Shown here: one piece after another, positions 5,482 through 19,284 of the stretch
Position numbering within the stretch: the first letter of the stretch is position 1
Layout: each line of letters begins with the position of its first letter
Assembly (NCBI GenBank): GCA_020073495.1
Contig: JAIQFD010000003.1
Location: forward strand, 372,001 to 436,000
DNA length: 64,000 bases
Direction: 5' to 3'
Source of the DNA: Terriglobia bacterium
Lineage (GTDB): Bacteria; Acidobacteriota; Terriglobia; Terriglobales; Acidobacteriaceae
Notes under the pieces: generated by a model
Told to the model about the DNA's origin: nothing
Databases searched by the model: none
Seen by the model: the letters and a program-made list of their open reading frames with translations, nothing else
Made by a program: the position numbers and the translations under genes

Positions 5482-6914
5482 CAGAGTTCCTCCTCATCTT
5501 CCTCCGCCAAGGCGCTGACGGCTTCCAGGCGCTTGAAGTCCTCGCGCGTGAAGCCGAGCAGGCGGCGGTACACGTCCTGGTTGTCATAGCCCGTGGGACG
5601 CCCGAGCCATTTCATTCGGCCCGGTGTCCGGTGCTGCTGGAACGGGGTGGTGGCGTACAGGATCTTCCCGTAGTGCGGCGAGTCGTACTCGGCCACGTGC
5701 CCGCGGTACTTGAAGTGCGGATACTCGGCCACTTCGTTCACGTACAACACACCGCCCGATGCGACTTGCTGCTTGGACAGCTTGCGCTCCGCGTCGGCGC
5801 GCGAGTTGTCCTTCAGCCACTCGCACAGCATGGTGTAGGTCTTGACCTGCTGGTTGTAGGCCAGACGATCGGCCACTTCGCGCAGGTGCGGATCGCCGAG
5901 GATGTCGTCCTCGACTTTCGGATACTCGTCGCCGACCACGCGCCAGATGCGGTACCAGAGGCGATCGTGACCGCCGCCCACCATCATGTAGCCGTCCTTG
6001 CAGGGATTGACGGCGTAAATGTTGATGGCCAGGTCCCAATTGCCGAAGCGCGGACGGATGCTGCCGTCCATGGAGTGCCACGCCCAGCTGTAGTCCAGGA
6101 TGCGGATGATGGCCTCAGCCGAGGTCGCTTCGATGAACTGGCCCTCACCCGAGACCGTGTCGCGGTAGTAGATGGCCGCGAGGATACCGATCCCTGCGCA
6201 CGTTCCACCCACATGGTCCGCCATCCACAGCGCGGAACGCATGGGTGTGCCGCCGAACTCCTTGGGGTCGCCGGTGCCGTGCACGAATCCGCACGAAGCC
6301 TGGGCCACCGGGTCGAGCATGCCTTCCTTGTCTTTCAGCGGGCCCCACTGGCCGCGCTGTCCGACCCAGCAGTACACCAGCCGCGGGTTGAGCTCCTTGA
6401 GCTGGCGGTAGCCGATCCCCCACTCATCGAACTGGCCCGGAGGCGCGTTCTCGATCACCACGTCGCTGTGAACGACGAGCTGCTTGAAGATCTCGCGCCC
6501 TTCTTCCGAGTCGAGGTTGAGGGTGATGGACAGTTTGTTCCGCATCTCGTGCAGGAACTGCGCGCCCACCTCTTCGCCGGTCTCCTTGTCCTTGAACATG
6601 TATTCCCGGCGGCCGAAGGGAGTGAGCTGGCGCAGGGGGTCGCCGCCCGGAGGTTCGACCTGGATGACTTCGGCGCCGAGTTCGGCGAGCTGCGACGAGC
6701 ACCAGTGCCCGATCATCATGCGGGTGGTGCAGTCCAGCACGCGGATGCGGGAAAGAGCTTCGGGTTTCTCAAAGTTATGTTCCTGGCGCAGGATGGACTC
6801 CAGGAACAGTGGATAGTCCTTGGCTTGATCGCTGAGCCCGGCGTAAACCTCTTCCGGCTTCGCGATCGGTACCGCCGGCCACGGCGGCAGTTTGGGATTG
6901 CCGTTTGTTGCCAT
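5481..6914 (-). CDS. class III CoA-transferase (CaiB/BaiF family), subunit B; first gene of the operon
   Basis: This class III CoA-transferase has 477 residues from the ATG at 6914, which follows GAGGAGGCAATA. An upstream in-frame start at 6983 lacks a ribosome binding site and would add a non-homologous Pro-rich leader. Family motifs are RIRVLDCTTRMMIGHWCSSQLAELGAEVIQVEPP in its two halves, then IENAPPGQFDEWGIGYRQL and WMADHVGGTCAG with the catalytic Asp (residue 233 of the shorter form). It differs clearly from its partner downstream, with an inserted charged loop before residue 150, so the two probably form a heteromer rather than being a recent duplication. It heads the operon; a composite GTGA/TCAC operator lies about 350 bp upstream. 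Confidence 0.87.
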   Translation of the reverse strand: MATNGNPKLPPWPAVPIAKPEEVYAGLSDQAKDYPLFLESILRQEHNFEKPEALSRIRVLDCTTRMMIGHWCSSQLAELGAEVIQVEPPGGDPLRQLTPFGRREYMFKDKETGEEVGAQFLHEMRNKLSITLNLDSEEGREIFKQLVVHSDVVIENAPPGQFDEWGIGYRQLKELNPRLVYCWVGQRGQWGPLKDKEGMLDPVAQASCGFVHGTGDPKEFGGTPMRSALWMADHVGGTCAGIGILAAIYYRDTVSGEGQFIEATSAEAIIRILDYSWAWHSMDGSIRPRFGNWDLAINIYAVNPCKDGYMMVGGGHDRLWYRIWRVVGDEYPKVEDDILGDPHLREVADRLAYNQQVKTYTMLCEWLKDNSRADAERKLSKQQVASGGVLYVNEVAEYPHFKYRGHVAEYDSPHYGKILYATTPFQQHRTPGRMKWLGRPTGYDNQDVYRRLLGFTREDFKRLEAVSALAEEDEEEL

Positions 6915-7346
6915 TATTGCCTCCTCGACCCTCGGGACCGGGACAGGCGTATCTGGTTGCCCTCCAGCCCGGGGGCGGTACACTTCGGTTTGGTAGCTAG
7001 GCCGATCACCCTTGGATGAAGCGCCTCATGCATGGCCACCGGAACATCCGGCCCGAATGAGCGTTCGAACAATCGCGAACGCAAAAGACAAGCCAACAGC
7101 CGGGGCCGGGGTTGAGTCAAAACCTCGGAACACAGACCTACTACAGGGCCCTGGGTCGAACGTACCGTCCGGCAGTGGGATGCACGAGGACAGGGAAACC
7201 GGTGCGGCTCCGCCGACTCATTACATTGGTGGAGGCGGATTCTTCAGGAGTTCGGTCCGGCTTGCAGTGATTTCCGTCACACATATGAGTGACCGTTATC
7301 TCAGTGCCGCCGGCACGGCCCTCCCCCCGCCCCCCGCGCCGGGTTC
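6915..7346. promoter_or_regulatory. intergenic region upstream of the CoA-transferase operon
   Basis: 432 bp between the CoA-transferase start and the receptor stop. I see no convincing gene. It contains the composite operator at 7267-7292. On the minus strand there is a possible -10 (TGTAAT, 7225..7220) that would put the operator centre about 60 bp upstream of transcription and leave a leader of about 300 nt before the first start codon. The promoter placement is inference. Confidence 0.45.
7267..7294. promoter_or_regulatory. composite CRP/FNR-like operator, copy A
   Basis: Half-sites read GTGA (7267-7270), 6 bases TTTCCG, TCAC (7277-7280), 8 bases, GTGA (7289-7292) then CC. The first pair is a CRP-type palindrome. 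The same three half-sites with the same 6 and 8 base spacing occur at 10887, 15727 and 18716, and the 6-base spacer TTTCCG is identical to that of the 15727 copy. Confidence 0.6.
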
Positions 7347-13060: not shown

Positions 13061-14068
13061 CTACTTCGTGCTGCCCGCCAGTACCGGCACTTCGCCGAAG
13101 GCGAACTGCGCGACCTTGGCCAGAGCGGCGGTGCCGCGGACTTCGTCGTCGAGCAGCGGGAGAACGGCGCGCACGTTGTCGAAGTCGCGCCAGATCTCCT
13201 TCATGTAGCCGTCCTGCATGGCGACGCGGTTCTTCACGAAGTCGGGCGAGTCGGGGCGCACCTGATCCTTCTGGATCAGCATATTCACGATGACGCCGCC
13301 CACGGGAATGCCGAAATCGTGGAACCAGTTGATGAAGCGCTTGATGACCGCGATGGGCAGAGCCTCCGGCAAAGTGACGAAGAAGAAGGCGGTCTGTTCC
13401 ACGTCGGTCAGGAGCTCGCGGGCGTGGCCGATGCGGTCCTTGAACTTGAGCAGGTAGTCCATGAGCGGGTCCTGCTCCTTCTTCTTGGTGAAGGAGAGCA
13501 GCTCACGCAGGGACTGCGCCTCCTCGCGGGACTTCATCATCTTGTTGACCCACAGCGAATAGACCTTGCTCATGCCCAGCAGGCGGCGAGCGTTGGCGGT
13601 GGGCGCGGTGTCGAAGACGTAGACGTCGTACTCGTTCTTGAACATGAGGTCCACCATGTTCTCGAACATCGCCGATTCTTCGAACGCGGGGTTCATGGTG
13701 GCGCTCTCGACGAACGAGTCGGCCTGAGTGGAGATCTCGGCGAACTTCAGGAACCAGCGGATCTTCTGCTTGATGTCCTGCTTGGAGCGCTCGATGGTCT
13801 CCTTGGTGTCGATCTCGTAGGCCCAGAGGTTGGGGACGCCGGTGACGTGGGTGGGCGCGCCGTAGACGTTCTGGTCGAGCAGGCCGCTGAGCGAGTGCAC
13901 GGGGTTGGTGGAGGCCAGCAGCGTGCGCCGGCCCTGCTGCGCGAAGTGCAGTGCGCTGACGCCGGCCATGACCGTCTTGCCCACGCCGCCCTTGCCGCCG
14001 AAGAAGGCGAACTTCAGCTTGGGATGAGCGGCAACGAATTCCGTGAGTGATTGTTTGATCTCGGACAT
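13061..14068 (-). CDS. ArsA/Get3-like ATPase, copy 1 (degenerate switch I and signature motifs)
   Basis: This 335-residue SIMIBI-class ATPase has one nucleotide domain. The deviant Walker A is FGGKGGVGKT (23-32), with both lysines. Switch I reads STNPVHSLS (53-60), where ArsA and Get3 have STDP: Asn55 replaces the Asp that positions the attacking water in Get3. The DTAPTGH motif is DTAPTANA (153-160), with Gly-His lost. The adenine-binding region has VIVNMLI and, near the C-terminus, NRVAMQDGYMKEI, without the CxxC zinc clasp of eukaryotic Get3. It should bind ATP but hydrolyse it poorly. It lies 3 bp after the second ATPase, whose stop is downstream of this gene's GGGAGG ribosome binding site. 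Function is unknown; no arsenic-resistance genes are nearby. Confidence 0.85.
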   Translation of the reverse strand: MSEIKQSLTEFVAAHPKLKFAFFGGKGGVGKTVMAGVSALHFAQQGRRTLLASTNPVHSLSGLLDQNVYGAPTHVTGVPNLWAYEIDTKETIERSKQDIKQKIRWFLKFAEISTQADSFVESATMNPAFEESAMFENMVDLMFKNEYDVYVFDTAPTANARRLLGMSKVYSLWVNKMMKSREEAQSLRELLSFTKKKEQDPLMDYLLKFKDRIGHARELLTDVEQTAFFFVTLPEALPIAVIKRFINWFHDFGIPVGGVIVNMLIQKDQVRPDSPDFVKNRVAMQDGYMKEIWRDFDNVRAVLPLLDDEVRGTAALAKVAQFAFGEVPVLAGSTK

Positions 14069-14071
14069 GGC

Positions 14072-15061
14072 TCAGTGCCTCCCGTTTCCGTTGCCGTACA
14101 TCAGCCCGGCCAATTTCTCGATCATCGGCAGCCCGGTGATGTCGCGCTCCAGTTCGGGCACGCGCGCGATCACCTGCTTGCCGAAGGTGTTGTCGATCTC
14201 CTCCAGGTACCGCCCCTGCATCTTGAGCCGGTTCTGGAAGTACGGAGGCATCTGCTTCTGGGAGAGATCGGTGGGCAGCACGCGGTTGACGACGTATCCG
14301 GCGACGGGTACGTCGAACTTGGAGAAGAGCTGCGCCGCCTTCTCGGTGTCGAGGATGATCATCTCTTCCGGGACGACGACGAAGAAGAACGCGGTCTTCT
14401 TCCGGTCGGTGAGGATGCCCGACGACTGGTTGATGCGGTTCTTGATGTACAGCAGCTCGGTGAGGATGTGGTCTTCTTCGGTGACCTTCTGGCGCTTGAT
14501 GCGGGCCACCATCTCCTCGTGCTCGCGCATCTCCTCGCGCAGCTTGGTGATGCGGTTGATCCACTCGTCATACACCTTGGCCATGGAAAGGTAATAGAGG
14601 GCGTGGCCGAGAGGCACGAGGTCGTAGATGTAGTAGTCGTACTCGCCGCCGACCACGATATCCACGACAGCGTCGAAGATCGCCGATTCCTCCATCGCAG
14701 GCTCGGCCGAGGCGGCCTGGATGTACTGCTCGATCTCGTCCGGCACCTGGTCCATGCCGTACATGTCGAGGATCTTCTTGCGGATCTGGCCCTGGTACTC
14801 GCGGATGTGGGTGTCGGCGTCGATCTCCTGGGCGTAGAGGTTGTTCATGACCTTGACCGCGCCCTTGCCGTAGATGTCCTGCTGGAAGATGTCGCTGAGC
14901 GACGCCTGCGGATCCACGGAGAAGACGAGAACCTTGTGTCCCTGCTGGGCGAGCCAGAAGGCGGTGGCGGCGGAGAAAGTGGTCTTTCCCAGGCCGCCCT
15001 TGCCGCCGAACATGATGTAGCGGCGGTCCTTATTCTGTTCGAACGTATCTTTGAGTGACAT
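14072..15061 (-). CDS. ArsA/Get3-like ATPase, copy 2 (active-type switch I)
   Basis: This 329-residue single-domain ATPase is paralogous to the downstream copy. Walker A is FGGKGGLGKTT (18-28). Switch I is SVDPQASLSD (48-57) with the catalytic-type Asp50 kept. The motif at the DTAPTGH position is DLVPLGHAL (147-155), so Gly-His is kept but the TAPT part is changed. Near the C-terminus VVNRVLP and FQNRLKMQGRYLEEI match the adenine-binding and helical parts of Get3/ArsA; no CxxC is present. The ATG follows AAGGACTCGAC. Together with copy 1 it may form an asymmetric heterodimer with one competent active site. ArsA proper has two such domains in one chain; here they are two genes, and no ArsB pump or ArsR is near. 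Confidence 0.86.
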   Translation of the reverse strand: MSLKDTFEQNKDRRYIMFGGKGGLGKTTFSAATAFWLAQQGHKVLVFSVDPQASLSDIFQQDIYGKGAVKVMNNLYAQEIDADTHIREYQGQIRKKILDMYGMDQVPDEIEQYIQAASAEPAMEESAIFDAVVDIVVGGEYDYYIYDLVPLGHALYYLSMAKVYDEWINRITKLREEMREHEEMVARIKRQKVTEEDHILTELLYIKNRINQSSGILTDRKKTAFFFVVVPEEMIILDTEKAAQLFSKFDVPVAGYVVNRVLPTDLSQKQMPPYFQNRLKMQGRYLEEIDNTFGKQVIARVPELERDITGLPMIEKLAGLMYGNGNGRH

Positions 15062-15094
15062 GTCGAGTCCTTATGAATGCGAGATGAGTGCGGT

Positions 15095-15376
15095 TTAAAA
15101 CATGGCGTCGGAGACGTCTTTTTCGCGCAGCATGCGGCGCTTCCAGGTCGCGATGTTGGGCACGACGTAGGGCAGCAGGCGCAACGAGTAATAGGGCGGC
15201 AGGATGGGAACGCCGATCAGGTCGCCCATGGTGATGAGGATGAAGAGATGCTCCATGCTGGCGCGGGTGCGCATGGCGTAACGGGACATGTCATGCGCGC
15301 TCATGCCGTAAGCAATCTCTTTAACTTTGCTGAAAAAGCCTTGCTTCTCGTCGTTGTTTTCGGGTTTGTCGGGCAT
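15095..15376 (-). CDS. small conserved-motif protein B, paired with the ArsA-like ATPases
   Basis: This 93-residue protein is a clear paralog of the neighbouring upstream gene. Shared core: a hydrophobic stretch with LITMGDLIGVP (48-58), then ILPPYYSLRLLPYVVPNIA, and a basic tail WKRRMLREKDVSD (78-90). The N-terminal 30 residues are polar and not conserved between the two. The hydrophobic, proline-punctuated centre could insert into or lie on a membrane, or be held in the groove of a Get3-like ATPase. I know no named family. It has its own ribosome binding site (AGGAGCTGACA) and lies 33 bp before ATPase copy 2. Confidence 0.75.
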   Translation of the reverse strand: MPDKPENNDEKQGFFSKVKEIAYGMSAHDMSRYAMRTRASMEHLFILITMGDLIGVPILPPYYSLRLLPYVVPNIATWKRRMLREKDVSDAMF

Positions 15377-15391
15377 TGTCAGCTCCTAGGT

Positions 15392-15673
15392 TCAAACTCC
15401 GTGCAAGTGAAATTCTTCTTTGTCGGAAAGATCGCGCTCGCGCAGGACGCGACGCTTCCATTGAGCGATGTTTGGCACGACATAGGGCAGCACACGCAGC
15501 GAGTAGATCGGCGGGATGACAGGAACGCCCAGCATGTCGCCGAGGGTGATCAGCATGAAGGCGGATTCCAGCTCGCCGCGCATCTCCAGGGCCTGGCGCT
15601 CGAACTCGTAGGCGTAAAGGCCGTAGAAGAATTCGCGGACTGCGCGGAAGCGGGTCACTTTGGTCTTCATCAT
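15392..15673 (-). CDS. small conserved-motif protein A, paired with the ArsA-like ATPases
   Basis: This 93-residue protein is the first gene of the ATPase operon. Its core LITLGDMLGVP (41-51), then VIPPIYSLRVLPYVVPNIA and WKRRVLRERDLSD (72-84), matches the downstream paralog almost position for position, while the N-terminus (basic and aromatic) and the charged C-terminal tail are its own. There are two adjacent ATGs at 15673 and 15670; GGAAGG sits directly before them, so the second is a little better placed. Fifteen base pairs separate it from protein B. Two small paralogs with two ATPase paralogs suggests matched pairs. Upstream lie a four-fold heptamer repeat and a composite operator. Confidence 0.76.
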   Translation of the reverse strand: MMKTKVTRFRAVREFFYGLYAYEFERQALEMRGELESAFMLITLGDMLGVPVIPPIYSLRVLPYVVPNIAQWKRRVLRERDLSDKEEFHLHGV

Positions 15674-15790: not shown

Positions 15791-16420
15791 ATGTCGCCAC
15801 AGCTCAGCATCTTCATCCTCGTCATCGTCTTCGTGGTCGGCTGGTTCGCCGTCGGCACCCAGCTCAACGTCCGCAAAGGCGAAACCGTGCTCAAATGGCT
15901 CCAGGACGGCTTGCCGCTCATCGGGGAAAAGGCCACCCTGCGCTGGCTCGGTTCCTCCGCCGTCGAGCTCAAAATCGAAGATGCGCGAGCTCCGTTCCGC
16001 AGCGCCCAGGTCCTGGTCCTGCTCGAGCCGCGCGACGTGCCGCTGATCTGGTGGTACTTCCGCCTGCGCGGCCGCCGCGACCTGTTCATCTTCCGCGGAG
16101 AGCTGCGCTCCGGCCCGCGGCGCGAGCTCGAAGTGCTGGACGTCGCGGCCTGGTCCGCGCGCAGGGCATACGCGCGGGTCAAAGCGGACCAGTGGCCGGC
16201 GGTGAATGCGCCGGCGCCGCTGTCCGCATTCGCGGCACAAGCCTCCACCGATGCTTCCGCGGCGATCCGCGCCGCGGCCCTCGACGGCTGTCCGCTGGCA
16301 CGCCTTTCCCTGCGCCGCAGCGAGCCCAACCTCGAGATCCAGTGGCCGCTGGATGAACTCCGGAAACACTCCGCGCGCGAGGTCGTCGAAGCCATCCAAC
16401 GAGCCGGTCAATCCAGTTAG
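15791..16420 (+). CDS. membrane-anchored protein of unknown function
   Basis: This 209-residue protein is not recognised. It starts with one strongly hydrophobic segment (LSIFILVIVFVVGWFAVG, about 5-22), followed by a soluble part of about 185 residues. The soluble part is rich in Arg, Leu and Ala, with alternating strands in the middle (VELKIEDARAPF, VLVLLEPRDVPLIWWYFRLRGRRDLFIFRGEL) and a helical C-terminus (WPLDELRKHSAREVVEAI). There is no cleavage site, so it is probably anchored with the C-terminal domain in the cytosol (positive-inside is not decisive). It is divergent from the ArsA-like operon and shares operator copy C with it. Both may therefore respond to the same signal. Confidence 0.65.
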   Translation: MSPQLSIFILVIVFVVGWFAVGTQLNVRKGETVLKWLQDGLPLIGEKATLRWLGSSAVELKIEDARAPFRSAQVLVLLEPRDVPLIWWYFRLRGRRDLFIFRGELRSGPRRELEVLDVAAWSARRAYARVKADQWPAVNAPAPLSAFAAQASTDASAAIRAAALDGCPLARLSLRRSEPNLEIQWPLDELRKHSAREVVEAIQRAGQSS

Positions 16421-16501: not shown

Positions 16502-18562
16502 CTAGTCTGCCGCGATCGCTGCTTCGCGCTTCGGCGCGGGGGCTACTTTCAGCCTCTGCCACGCGTGGAAGGCGTCGTACGCGATGACCGCTGCCGCGAT
16601 GAACAGCAGCATCGCGACCACGATCATCAGGCCCGCGCCGACGCTATTGATCGGCTGCGCCGCGATCTTCGGGTTCGACAGGATGCTGGCGTAGAGGTTG
16701 TACGAAGTCACCAGGATCGCTGCCATGGTCGTGATGTACATGAACACCATCGGCCAGAAGGCGTAGCGGGGGTTCTTGCCCGTCGACTTCAGCCAGATGC
16801 TGACGATCAGCAGGCTGAGCGCCGCCATCAACTGGTTGGAGGCGCCGAAGAGCTGCCAGAGGTAGATCCAGGTTCCGCTCAGGACCAGCACAAAGGTCAG
16901 CGCCATGGAGACGATGGCTGCGATGTGCGGGTTCTTGAAGCCGGCCCAGGTATCGCCGAGCCACTCGCCCAGCGTCACGCGCATGACGCGGAAGACGAGT
17001 TGCACCATGGTCAGCACGATGACGACGAACACGCCGAAGCCAAGTGCCGTGCCATAAGCGGGAGCGATGGCGCCGAAGGTGACGATGCCGAGCAGCTTGC
17101 CGACGCCTGCGGCGAATGCGCCCGCGCCCGCGCCGCCCGCGATGGATACCGCGACCAGCGAGAGCAGGGCCAAAGCGTTCTCGGAGAACATGCCACCACC
17201 GCCCACGGGCAGCGCGTCGGTCTCATACTCGAGCTGACGCGCGGTGCCGATGGAGCCGACGAGCGCGTGCCAGCCGGAGATGGCGCCGCAGGCGATGGTC
17301 ACGAAGAGCATCGGCCACAGCGGCTGGATCGCGGGCAGCGCCTGCAGGATGTTGCCGGCCGCGTCCTTGGCCTGGGTCATCGGCATCAAGGTGGTGAAGA
17401 CCTTCGTCTGGAAGGTGATGGCGGTGGCCATGTCGGCGTTGCCCAACAGGGCACGGATGCCGCCGACGACCGCACCCAGCGCCGTCAGGCCGATGGTCAG
17501 GAACGTCACCCAGAAGCCGATGTAATTCGTCGGCTGGGCGAAGCGCCAGATGGGCAAAACGGTCCCGAGATACGAGAAGGCGAACACGAACAGGCACCAG
17601 AAGAGGAACGATGGGAGCATCTTGATGGCGCCGCTCTTGTCCACGTACTTGGGAACGATCTTGCCGTCGGCGCCGACCACGGTAGTGGCCAGGCGCGGAT
17701 CGGACTTGGTCGGGTCAACCACGGTGTAGAGCGGCTGACCGCCGGAGATACGGTTGATGACGCCTCCAAGCTTCTCGACCGTTGAGTTGATAGGCCCGGC
17801 GAAGACCAAGGTGCTCGCCGCCTTGCCATCGGGCGTCTGCCCCTTTACCGCACTGATGCCCTTGGCGCCGAGCGCCATCGAGGCCAGCGTGACCGCCACC
17901 GCGATGAAGGTGACCAGCACGAGGTCCATCTTCCAGCGGTAGAGCATCTGGCCCATGATCAGGCCCATGACGGCCAGCATGAAGATGCCAAAGGGAACGT
18001 CAGCGCGCGGGTCAAAGATGCCGGCCATGATGCCGACGAACGCGCCCGCCAGCAGCAGCAGATAGAAGAAGATGAAAACGAACAGGATGATGCGCGTGCG
18101 CGGTGCGATCAGCTTGTGAGCGATCGCCGACAGAGAATTGCCGTCGTTGCGGACGGCAACCACGATGGCCGAGTAGTCGCTCGCCCAACCCAGGAAGGTC
18201 ACGCCGAGCACGAGCCACAGCAGCGCCGGCAGCCAGCCCCAGATCATCGCGGCGGCGATGGGGCCGACGATGGGCCCCGCGGCCGCAATGGATTTGAAGT
18301 GATAGCCGTACAGCACGTTGCGGCTGGTGGGCATGAAATCCACGCCGTCCATGTACATGCGTGCGGGCGTGGCTTTCTTTTTATCGGGCTGGATGACGTC
18401 CTGGTCGATGCGGCGCGCGTAGCGCGTGTAGCCCAGGTAGATCATGACCGCGCCCAGCACGGCAACGACGGTGGCGTTCATGGGCTTGTGCGTAAGGGCA
18501 AAGCCGCCCGCCACGAGAATAGGAATGAGCAAGAGGATGAGGATCGAAAGCCGAATATTCAT
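16502..18562 (-). CDS. cstA: carbon starvation protein CstA, peptide/pyruvate transporter family
   Basis: This 686-residue polytopic inner-membrane protein has the CstA layout, with about 16-18 hydrophobic segments and family sequences near the N-terminus such as PTSRNVLYGYHFKSIAAAGPIVGPI and, in the centre, ISGWHALVGSIGTARQLEYETDALPVGGGGMFSEN (each seen in parts). E. coli CstA and BtsT import peptides and pyruvate, and cstA is activated by CRP during carbon starvation. An inserted soluble loop at about 240-300 between membrane segments is larger than in E. coli. The composite operator copy D sits about 160 bp upstream, which agrees with a CRP-type control. Annotated from family similarity; the solute is not certain. 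Confidence 0.9.
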   Translation of the reverse strand: MNIRLSILILLLIPILVAGGFALTHKPMNATVVAVLGAVMIYLGYTRYARRIDQDVIQPDKKKATPARMYMDGVDFMPTSRNVLYGYHFKSIAAAGPIVGPIAAAMIWGWLPALLWLVLGVTFLGWASDYSAIVVAVRNDGNSLSAIAHKLIAPRTRIILFVFIFFYLLLLAGAFVGIMAGIFDPRADVPFGIFMLAVMGLIMGQMLYRWKMDLVLVTFIAVAVTLASMALGAKGISAVKGQTPDGKAASTLVFAGPINSTVEKLGGVINRISGGQPLYTVVDPTKSDPRLATTVVGADGKIVPKYVDKSGAIKMLPSFLFWCLFVFAFSYLGTVLPIWRFAQPTNYIGFWVTFLTIGLTALGAVVGGIRALLGNADMATAITFQTKVFTTLMPMTQAKDAAGNILQALPAIQPLWPMLFVTIACGAISGWHALVGSIGTARQLEYETDALPVGGGGMFSENALALLSLVAVSIAGGAGAGAFAAGVGKLLGIVTFGAIAPAYGTALGFGVFVVIVLTMVQLVFRVMRVTLGEWLGDTWAGFKNPHIAAIVSMALTFVLVLSGTWIYLWQLFGASNQLMAALSLLIVSIWLKSTGKNPRYAFWPMVFMYITTMAAILVTSYNLYASILSNPKIAAQPINSVGAGLMIVVAMLLFIAAAVIAYDAFHAWQRLKVAPAPKREAAIAAD

Positions 18563-18750: not shown

Positions 18751-19206
18751 TCATTTCTGCTGGAGCGACTCCAGATATTGAATGAGGCTCTTGATGCGCA
18801 AGTCCACTTCCTTCTCGTCCTGGTGGCTGACCGGCTTGAAGGCGGTTCCCCAGACCGGCATCTCTTTGGATCCGTGGCCGACGATGCCGCCGCCCCACTT
18901 GATGACCTGGAAGACGTCGCCCTCAGGAAACTTGCCCTTCTTGCGTTTGGCGAGGACAGTGAGGTCGGGCAGGCGCTTCTTGAGCGCGGGGGCGGCGGGG
19001 CCGTTCCCCTTGCCGTCGGCGCCGTGACAACTGGCGCAGTAGGCGGTGTACATCTCGGCGCCGGACATGGGGGAGGTTTGCGGGATGGGCGGCTTGGCGG
19101 CCGGCGCCGGCTGGCTCGCCGGAGCCTGCTGACTGGGATTGCTGCAGGCGGAGAGGACAACAAGAACGGTTATAAGGGAACTAAAGAGAAACGTCAGCCG
19201 GCGCAT
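18751..19206 (-). CDS. small lipoprotein cytochrome c
   Basis: This exported mono-heme cytochrome has 151 residues from the ATG at 19206. That start gives a lipoprotein signal peptide ending in the lipobox LSAC (Cys21), and GGAGG lies about 10 bp before it; the longer frame to 19272 would bury the signal. A Pro/Ala-rich linker (22-46) is followed by the heme site CASCH (57-61) and a likely axial Met in EMPVWGT. It belongs to class I c-type cytochromes and should carry electrons in the periplasm while anchored to a membrane. It precedes cstA in the same direction. A TCAC-N8-GTGA site about 65 bp upstream resembles half of the composite operator. Confidence 0.85.
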   Translation of the reverse strand: MRRLTFLFSSLITVLVVLSACSNPSQQAPASQPAPAAKPPIPQTSPMSGAEMYTAYCASCHGADGKGNGPAAPALKKRLPDLTVLAKRKKGKFPEGDVFQVIKWGGGIVGHGSKEMPVWGTAFKPVSHQDEKEVDLRIKSLIQYLESLQQK

Positions 19207-19268
19207 GGGAGACAAACCTCCACGGGCTTGAGCATGCGCGGCGCCCGAACCGGGTGCAATGATGGAGG

Positions 19269-19284
19269 TCACTGGCGGATGTGA
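19269..19284. promoter_or_regulatory. partial operator, TCAC-N8-GTGA only (copy E)
   Basis: On the plus strand it reads TCAC (19269-19272), 8 bases, GTGA (19281-19284). Read on the minus strand it ends AGTGACC, as in copies A and B. The outer GTGA of the CRP-type palindrome is absent. It is about 65 bp upstream of the cytochrome c start codon. Confidence 0.4.

Follow-up and report, generated by a model that had tools for sequence, protein, structure and literature searches.

A four-gene unit beside cstA

The 64,000-nucleotide stretch of DNA analysed here (the window; contig JAIQFD010000003.1 of a Terriglobia bacterium) contains, close to a gene for the carbon starvation protein CstA, a compact unit of four genes that encode two ArsA/Get3-type ATPases, A1 and A2, and two small proteins, S1 and S2. 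On the minus strand, the order of transcription is S1 (15392..15673), S2 (15095..15376), A2 (14072..15061) and A1 (13061..14068), with intergenic gaps of 15, 33 and 3 bp. An earlier reading of the window from its sequence alone (the sequence-only reading) had described two adjacent ATPase genes and two adjacent genes for 93-amino acid (aa) paralogues, all in one direction and 3-33 bp apart, and the coordinates of the open reading frames (ORFs) bear this out. The ATPases A1 (335 aa) and A2 (329 aa) both match PF02374 (E 7.8e-67 and 7.2e-76, respectively) and TIGR00345 above cut-off (E 1.8e-65 to 7.2e-76 for the two models). S1, which ends in HLHGV, and the helical protein S2, which has no Cys-Cys end, give weak matches to the cory-CC-star model NF041419 (35.2 bits, E 9.4e-9 for S1; 34.2 bits, E 1.9e-8 for S2), both under its curated cut-off of 80 bits; they are distant relatives of this family, for which we found no relevant literature.

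The cstA gene (16502..18562, minus strand; PF02554, E 2.5e-98) encodes a polytopic transporter and lies about 0.8 kb beyond S1. It is the single CstA found in this genome (one locus, matched as three pieces of one frame). Between cstA and S1, on the opposite strand, is the gene of X209 (15791..16420, plus strand), a protein with one membrane helix and an alpha/beta domain whose structure model and fold matches predict a CCDC47-like fold.

A profile scan of species genomes with A1 detected 337 relatives, the best 80 of which are the loci counted below (distant relatives thus fall outside the sample). Going by their record titles, most come from Chloroflexi and the others from Acidobacteria, Gemmatimonadetes and a small number of further phyla; nearly all are metagenome bins. 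Motif counts include one contig twice (L043 = L116), and rates for upstream genes refer to the 49 loci in which the contig extends at least 5.5 kb beyond A1 on that side. Two further samples comprise 297 Acidobacteriota and 251 Chloroflexota genomes. In the former, cory-CC-star proteins are present in 29 genomes (hereafter CC-star genomes). Eleven of these have two copies and, within the limits of their contigs, the set S1, S2, A2 and A1 (the quartet); the 18 with a single copy have one small protein (S0) and one ATPase (A0).

Copy-specific motifs of the ATPase pair

The two ATPases differ at their switch motifs in a way that is fixed by copy. Switch I reads STNPVHS in A1 (90/90 sequences) and SVDPQAS in A2 (87/87 covering the site), so that the catalytic Asp is kept in A2 and replaced by Asn in every A1, and switch II reads DTAPTAN in A1 (89/89 covering the site) and DLVPLGHA in A2 (88/88). 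The deviant Walker A motif (GKGGxGKT) is intact in both, as GGKGGVGKT in A1 (90/90) and GGKGGLGKT in A2 (85/85 with the whole site covered). In the window, the sequence-only reading was exact on these points: A1 has STNP with Asn55 and DTAPTANA, A2 has SVDP with Asp50 and DLVPLGHA, and neither contains a CxxC zinc site. The same reading had staked its proposal of a heterodimer on the Asn/Asp and AN/GH differences being conserved in orthologues, and conserved by copy they are. Because the motifs are fixed over 87 to 90 sequences, the split is not due to chance.

The single-copy ATPases of the Acidobacteriota sample indicate which positions have changed. All 18 A0 proteins keep the switch-I Asp; 11 combine STDPAHS with DTAP[TS]GH and seven deviate. 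Relative to the 11 canonical rows, Asn replaces the switch-I Asp in A1, Ala-Asn stands in place of the switch-II Gly-His, and an Arg after the conserved Asn has become Met. A2 keeps the sites altered in A1 but differs elsewhere: its switch-I His has become Ala, and two switch-II Thr have become Leu. In the ATPase tree, which is unrooted, A1 (support 100/100) and A2 (100/99) each form a group and are joined together with 100/98 support, with the A0 rows, on long branches, and haloarchaeal ArsA outside; this phylogeny shows A1 and A2 as sister groups of one old duplication. The gene order A2 then A1 is unbroken in 80/80 loci from several phyla.

A1 and A2 resemble Get3 and its archaeal relatives in fold family, deviant Walker A motif and switches I and II, and differ from Get3 in the lack of CxxC, the Asn in switch I of A1 and the genomic partner CstA. 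The nearest solved structures by sequence are the archaeal chains 3ug6 and 3zq6, which we take to be Get3 (E 1e-49 to 1e-60), followed by ArsA 1f48 (E 1e-28 to 1e-32). In a comparison of few sequences, the hydrophobicity of the lid segment is slightly lower than that in 3ug6 and 3zq6 (0.33-0.37 vs 0.41), and the segment contains 2-6 Met residues vs 5 and 7 in those chains. The CxxC site is also missing in some Get3 proteins (PMC10248533; this and the other PMC numbers refer to extracts of the papers cited). For yeast Get3, the switch-I Asp (D57) is reported to be indispensable for hydrolysis, and mutating it is reported to trap ATP (PMC12506534); the Asn of A1 occupies the exact position used in the laboratory to trap the yeast protein. 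Since this Asp is replaced, we file A1 in the ArsA/Get3 family by sequence and not as an active Get3.

From the copy-specific losses and the role of the Asp in yeast Get3 (PMC12506534), it is fair to infer a heterodimer with unlike sites. As far as the sequences can tell, A1 and A2 probably form a heterodimer, and we lean towards the view that one of its ATPase sites would not hydrolyse. Two unlike chains of this family have been seen together before, as chains A and B of the structure PDB 6bs3. They represent mycobacterial BagA/BagB (Rv3679/Rv3680), an adjacent pair of the superfamily, like A1 and A2, whose chains occur together in 6bs3, 6bs4 and 6bs5. The relationship is distant, A1 and A2 scoring far below the cut-offs of NF053622 and NF053621, and for BagA/BagB we have here no link to CstA or to small proteins. 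The rival view that A1 and A2 are separate homodimers with different jobs, a non-hydrolysing regulator and an active ATPase, follows the suggestion of Castillo and Saier for single-domain CstA-linked ATPases (PMC2963123), and is made improbable by the unbroken A2-A1 adjacency and by losses that differ between the copies.

CstA, the small proteins and X209

Of the 80 loci, 49 encode CstA; the gene lies upstream of A1 in 46 of them and downstream in the remaining three. Among the 49 loci with sufficient upstream sequence, 40 encode CstA. For 14 of the 31 loci without linked CstA the genome was searched, and CstA was found elsewhere in 14/14. Among the Chloroflexota genomes, A1 (E at most 1e-100) occurs in 31 and CstA in 35: 29 have both, two A1 only, six CstA only and 214 neither (p 9e-30, a value that is too strong because related genomes are counted as independent). 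One of the 31 A1 matches is distant (G394, 343 bits). Of the 29 genomes with both, 20 have the two genes on the same contig and no more than about 6 kb apart. In Acidobacteriota, CstA is present in 29/29 CC-star genomes vs 198/297 overall. A functional tie of the gene unit to CstA is thus very probable. A sequence search of the PDB with CstA gave nothing under E 0.01.

The sequence-only reading had concluded that the known roles of the family do not fit. This fails: it overlooked cstA, and the genes belong to the published CstA-CstX-ArsA group. In 2010, Castillo and Saier reported 26 CstA-ArsA associations, of which 24 included CstX; in their proposal, ArsA supplies CstA with energy and CstX provides the coupling (PMC2963123). 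They mentioned adjacent ArsA pairs in two organisms, and noted that the Asp of the SXD motif is replaceable only by Asn, a remark that the extract does not tie to the paired genes (PMC2963123). Like the operons described there, the present locus has CstA clustered with a protein of about 90 aa and with ATPases that have a single domain and a length of about 330 aa; unlike them as published, it has an Asn/Asp split fixed by copy and often a CCDC47-like gene. It is a widespread asymmetric variant of this group. Likened by description, S1 and S2 fit CstX (about 90 aa) by size and place, and X209 fits CstY (about 210 aa, one membrane helix, in some archaea) by size, helix and place. Among the literature matches listed, 'CstX' appears only in Castillo and Saier. 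In a search that left out most subscription papers, we found neither the copy-specific Asn/Asp split nor a CCDC47-like protein next to CstA described.

The small proteins accompany the ATPase pair wherever the contig is long enough, S2 in 49/49 loci and S1 in 48/49, so that the objection foreseen in the sequence-only reading, ATPases found as often without them, does not hold. S2 precedes A2 in all 72 loci where S2 was found, and S1 precedes S2 in 60 of the 64 with S1, which lies beyond A1 in the other four. That each ATPase has its own small protein agrees with most counts (1:1 in single-copy genomes, 2:2 here), but there are 12 of the 80 loci (L092, L093, L095, L098, L099, L100, L104, L106, L108, L119, L123 and L144) where a third member of the S family, S3, ending in D[AV][IML]F, follows A1. 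The tree of the S proteins is poorly resolved and does not recover S1 and S2 as clean groups. The S2 model consists of two helices with a confidence (pLDDT) of only 67, and its fold search returned one match, at E 5.5.

A Cys-Cys C terminus, taken as the cory-CC-star criterion from the family name, is found in 0/75 S1, 0/83 S2 and 0/12 S3, and in 11 of the 18 S0, the other seven ending in WA (four) or VG/IG (three). In the single-copy loci (L047-L064), the 11 S0 with a Cys-Cys end are paired with STDPAHS ATPases and the other seven loci lack both. On the Halobacterium plasmid pNRC100 (L153:2477-4955), a two-domain ArsA is followed by the small proteins HcsL and HcsS (halo-CC-star), both ending in Cys-Cys; these are again two small proteins per two ATPase domains. 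Homology between the S proteins and HcsL was not found.

The E. coli CstA-YbdD system also combines CstA with a small partner, and YbdD ends in Cys-Cys like the 11 S0; unlike that system, the S proteins gave no match to YbdD in an hhalign comparison. The YbdD family PF04328 is absent from this genome and from all 251 Chloroflexota genomes, and occurs in nine of the 297 Acidobacteriota genomes (six over cut-off), none of which is a CC-star genome. The PF02554 match of CstA is split into separate pieces in the window and in other quartet genomes, but is continuous from end to end, with more than 800 bits, in several Acidobacteriota genomes that have the YbdD family, which suggests CstA subfamilies.

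X209 is encoded in 47 of the 80 quartet loci and in 36 of the 49 with enough upstream sequence. In Acidobacteriota, where the first ten or so candidates per genome were scored, it is strong in 8/11 quartet genomes and found in 0/18 single-copy CC-star genomes; two other genomes gave weak matches. Its structure model (pLDDT 95.9) has three Foldseek matches under E 0.001 in the PDB, all translocon entries (7tm3_4, 9i78_4 and 6w6l_7). VIA gave Z scores of 15.7, 13.8 and 10.0 to three translocon chains, 9.6 to TtfA and at most 6.0 to the rest, the best match of the predicted model covering 204/209 residues at a root-mean-square deviation (rmsd) of 2.7. Sequence identity to the CCDC47 and TtfA fold matches is 8 to 13%. 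Chains 7tm3_4 and 6w6l_7 are presumably CCDC47, to judge from the shared match, and 9i78 chain 4 is read as CCDC47 because its residue range starts at 76, like the model in PMC12572126. X209 has no Pfam match, there was no CCDC47 model among the weak Pfam matches of 30 members, and a PDB sequence search with its profile gave nothing under E 10. Like CCDC47 of the PAT complex and TtfA, X209 is predicted to combine one membrane helix with the same alpha/beta domain; unlike CCDC47, it is bacterial, has no sequence match and lacks the latch helices, which in CCDC47 follow the globular domain (PMC12572126), since X209 ends at residue 209 and its helix 195-208 lies inside the matched domain. Similarity of predicted folds is no proof of common descent or of a common function.

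Weak X209-like matches (E 6.6e-22 and 2.8e-17) occur in two genomes without cory-CC-star proteins (G084 and G210; L164 ~6724-7332 and L165 ~6155-6763), with no CstA beside them in the stretch read and on contigs other than those listed for CstA.

Possible roles of the gene unit

The association of an ATPase pair and two small proteins with CstA in many bacteria suggests a lopsided ATP-driven helper complex for the transporter. As a whole, we consider the following to be the best explanation, with a probability of roughly 0.45. A1 and A2 would form an asymmetric Get3/ArsA-type heterodimer with CstA as its single client, linked to it by S1 and S2, which probably correspond to the CstX described by Castillo and Saier. 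The A2 site (Asp50) would hydrolyse ATP, and the A1 site (Asn55) would bind ATP and keep the dimer closed. The complex would use ATP to gate or energise CstA that is already finished and in the membrane, as proposed for ArsA on ArsB, and the membrane-anchored X209 would be an extra subunit where present. Between gate or energiser and assembly factor the balance is nearly even. A partner of finished CstA is favoured because transport subunits are usually linked to one transporter and, as a weak point, because the lid segment is not notably Met-rich.

The alternative is a dedicated assembly machine in which the Get3-like pair, S1/S2 and X209 would help to insert or fold the numerous helices of CstA, the ATP cycle ordering the hand-over. 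We regard it as possible, if less so than a partner of finished CstA. The two archaeal chains 3ug6 and 3zq6 are closer relatives than ArsA 1f48, and targeting or assembly of membrane proteins, already suggested in the sequence-only reading, gains from the CCDC47-like neighbour, CCDC47 being part of an intramembrane chaperone that serves multipass proteins (PMC12572126, PMC9630114). However, X209 cannot be obligatory, as it is missing from 3/11 Acidobacteriota quartet genomes and 33/80 quartet loci; the lid segment, compared in few sequences, falls slightly short of the two archaeal chains in hydrophobicity; and the next fold match of X209, TtfA, is a subunit of a transporter complex (PMC6593404). 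In its most far-reaching form, this alternative describes a bacterial machine for one multi-helix membrane protein, in which a Get3-like heterodimer with one active half, helical adaptors and a CCDC47 relative from prokaryotes would act on CstA, X209 being the counterpart and perhaps the ancestor of a PAT-complex subunit that published work assigns to eukaryotes alone; we consider this unlikely.

Several points weigh against the gate or energiser, besides the overstated p value. An assembly role would account for the CCDC47-like neighbour equally well or better. The CstA family does not need an ATPase, since E. coli CstA works with YbdD and the proton gradient: constitutive pyruvate uptake is reported to need both CstA and YbdD (PMC5847655), and CstA uptake to depend on the proton gradient (PMC7730263). 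Two of the Chloroflexota genomes with A1 have no CstA match, and CstA is not beside S0-A0 in 9/18 single-copy loci. Finally, the S tree is too poorly resolved to match S1 or S2 to one ATPase.

A metal, arsenic or redox system, which the family name and the haloarchaeal ArsA followed by the Cys-Cys-ending HcsL and HcsS might suggest, is highly improbable: Cys is absent from all four proteins of the window, the cores are Cys-free in 87/90 A1 and 80/91 A2, and the genes are linked to CstA. We rejected an arsenic or redox role on the near absence of Cys, and the redox-linked system offered in the sequence-only reading is thus unlikely.

If the asymmetric heterodimer serving CstA is real, a naturally half-dead pair tied to one defined client joins the Get3/ArsA family, and the old proposal that ArsA relatives drive CstA becomes directly testable. 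If X209 is a true relative of CCDC47, the statement that PAT components are lacking in prokaryotes (PMC9630114) comes into question.

Some further genes were observed near these loci. The nine single-copy S0-A0 pairs without adjoining CstA match are L051, L052, L055 and L059-L064, and the neighbour in L051 is a 778-aa ORF with a GIDCADC stretch. A protein of about 133 aa with a weak DUF1525 match (E 0.0033) is encoded near CstA in 32/80 loci (e.g., L134:2053-2454). In the window, a c-type cytochrome gene (18751-19272, minus strand; PF00034, E 4.2e-8) lies upstream of cstA.

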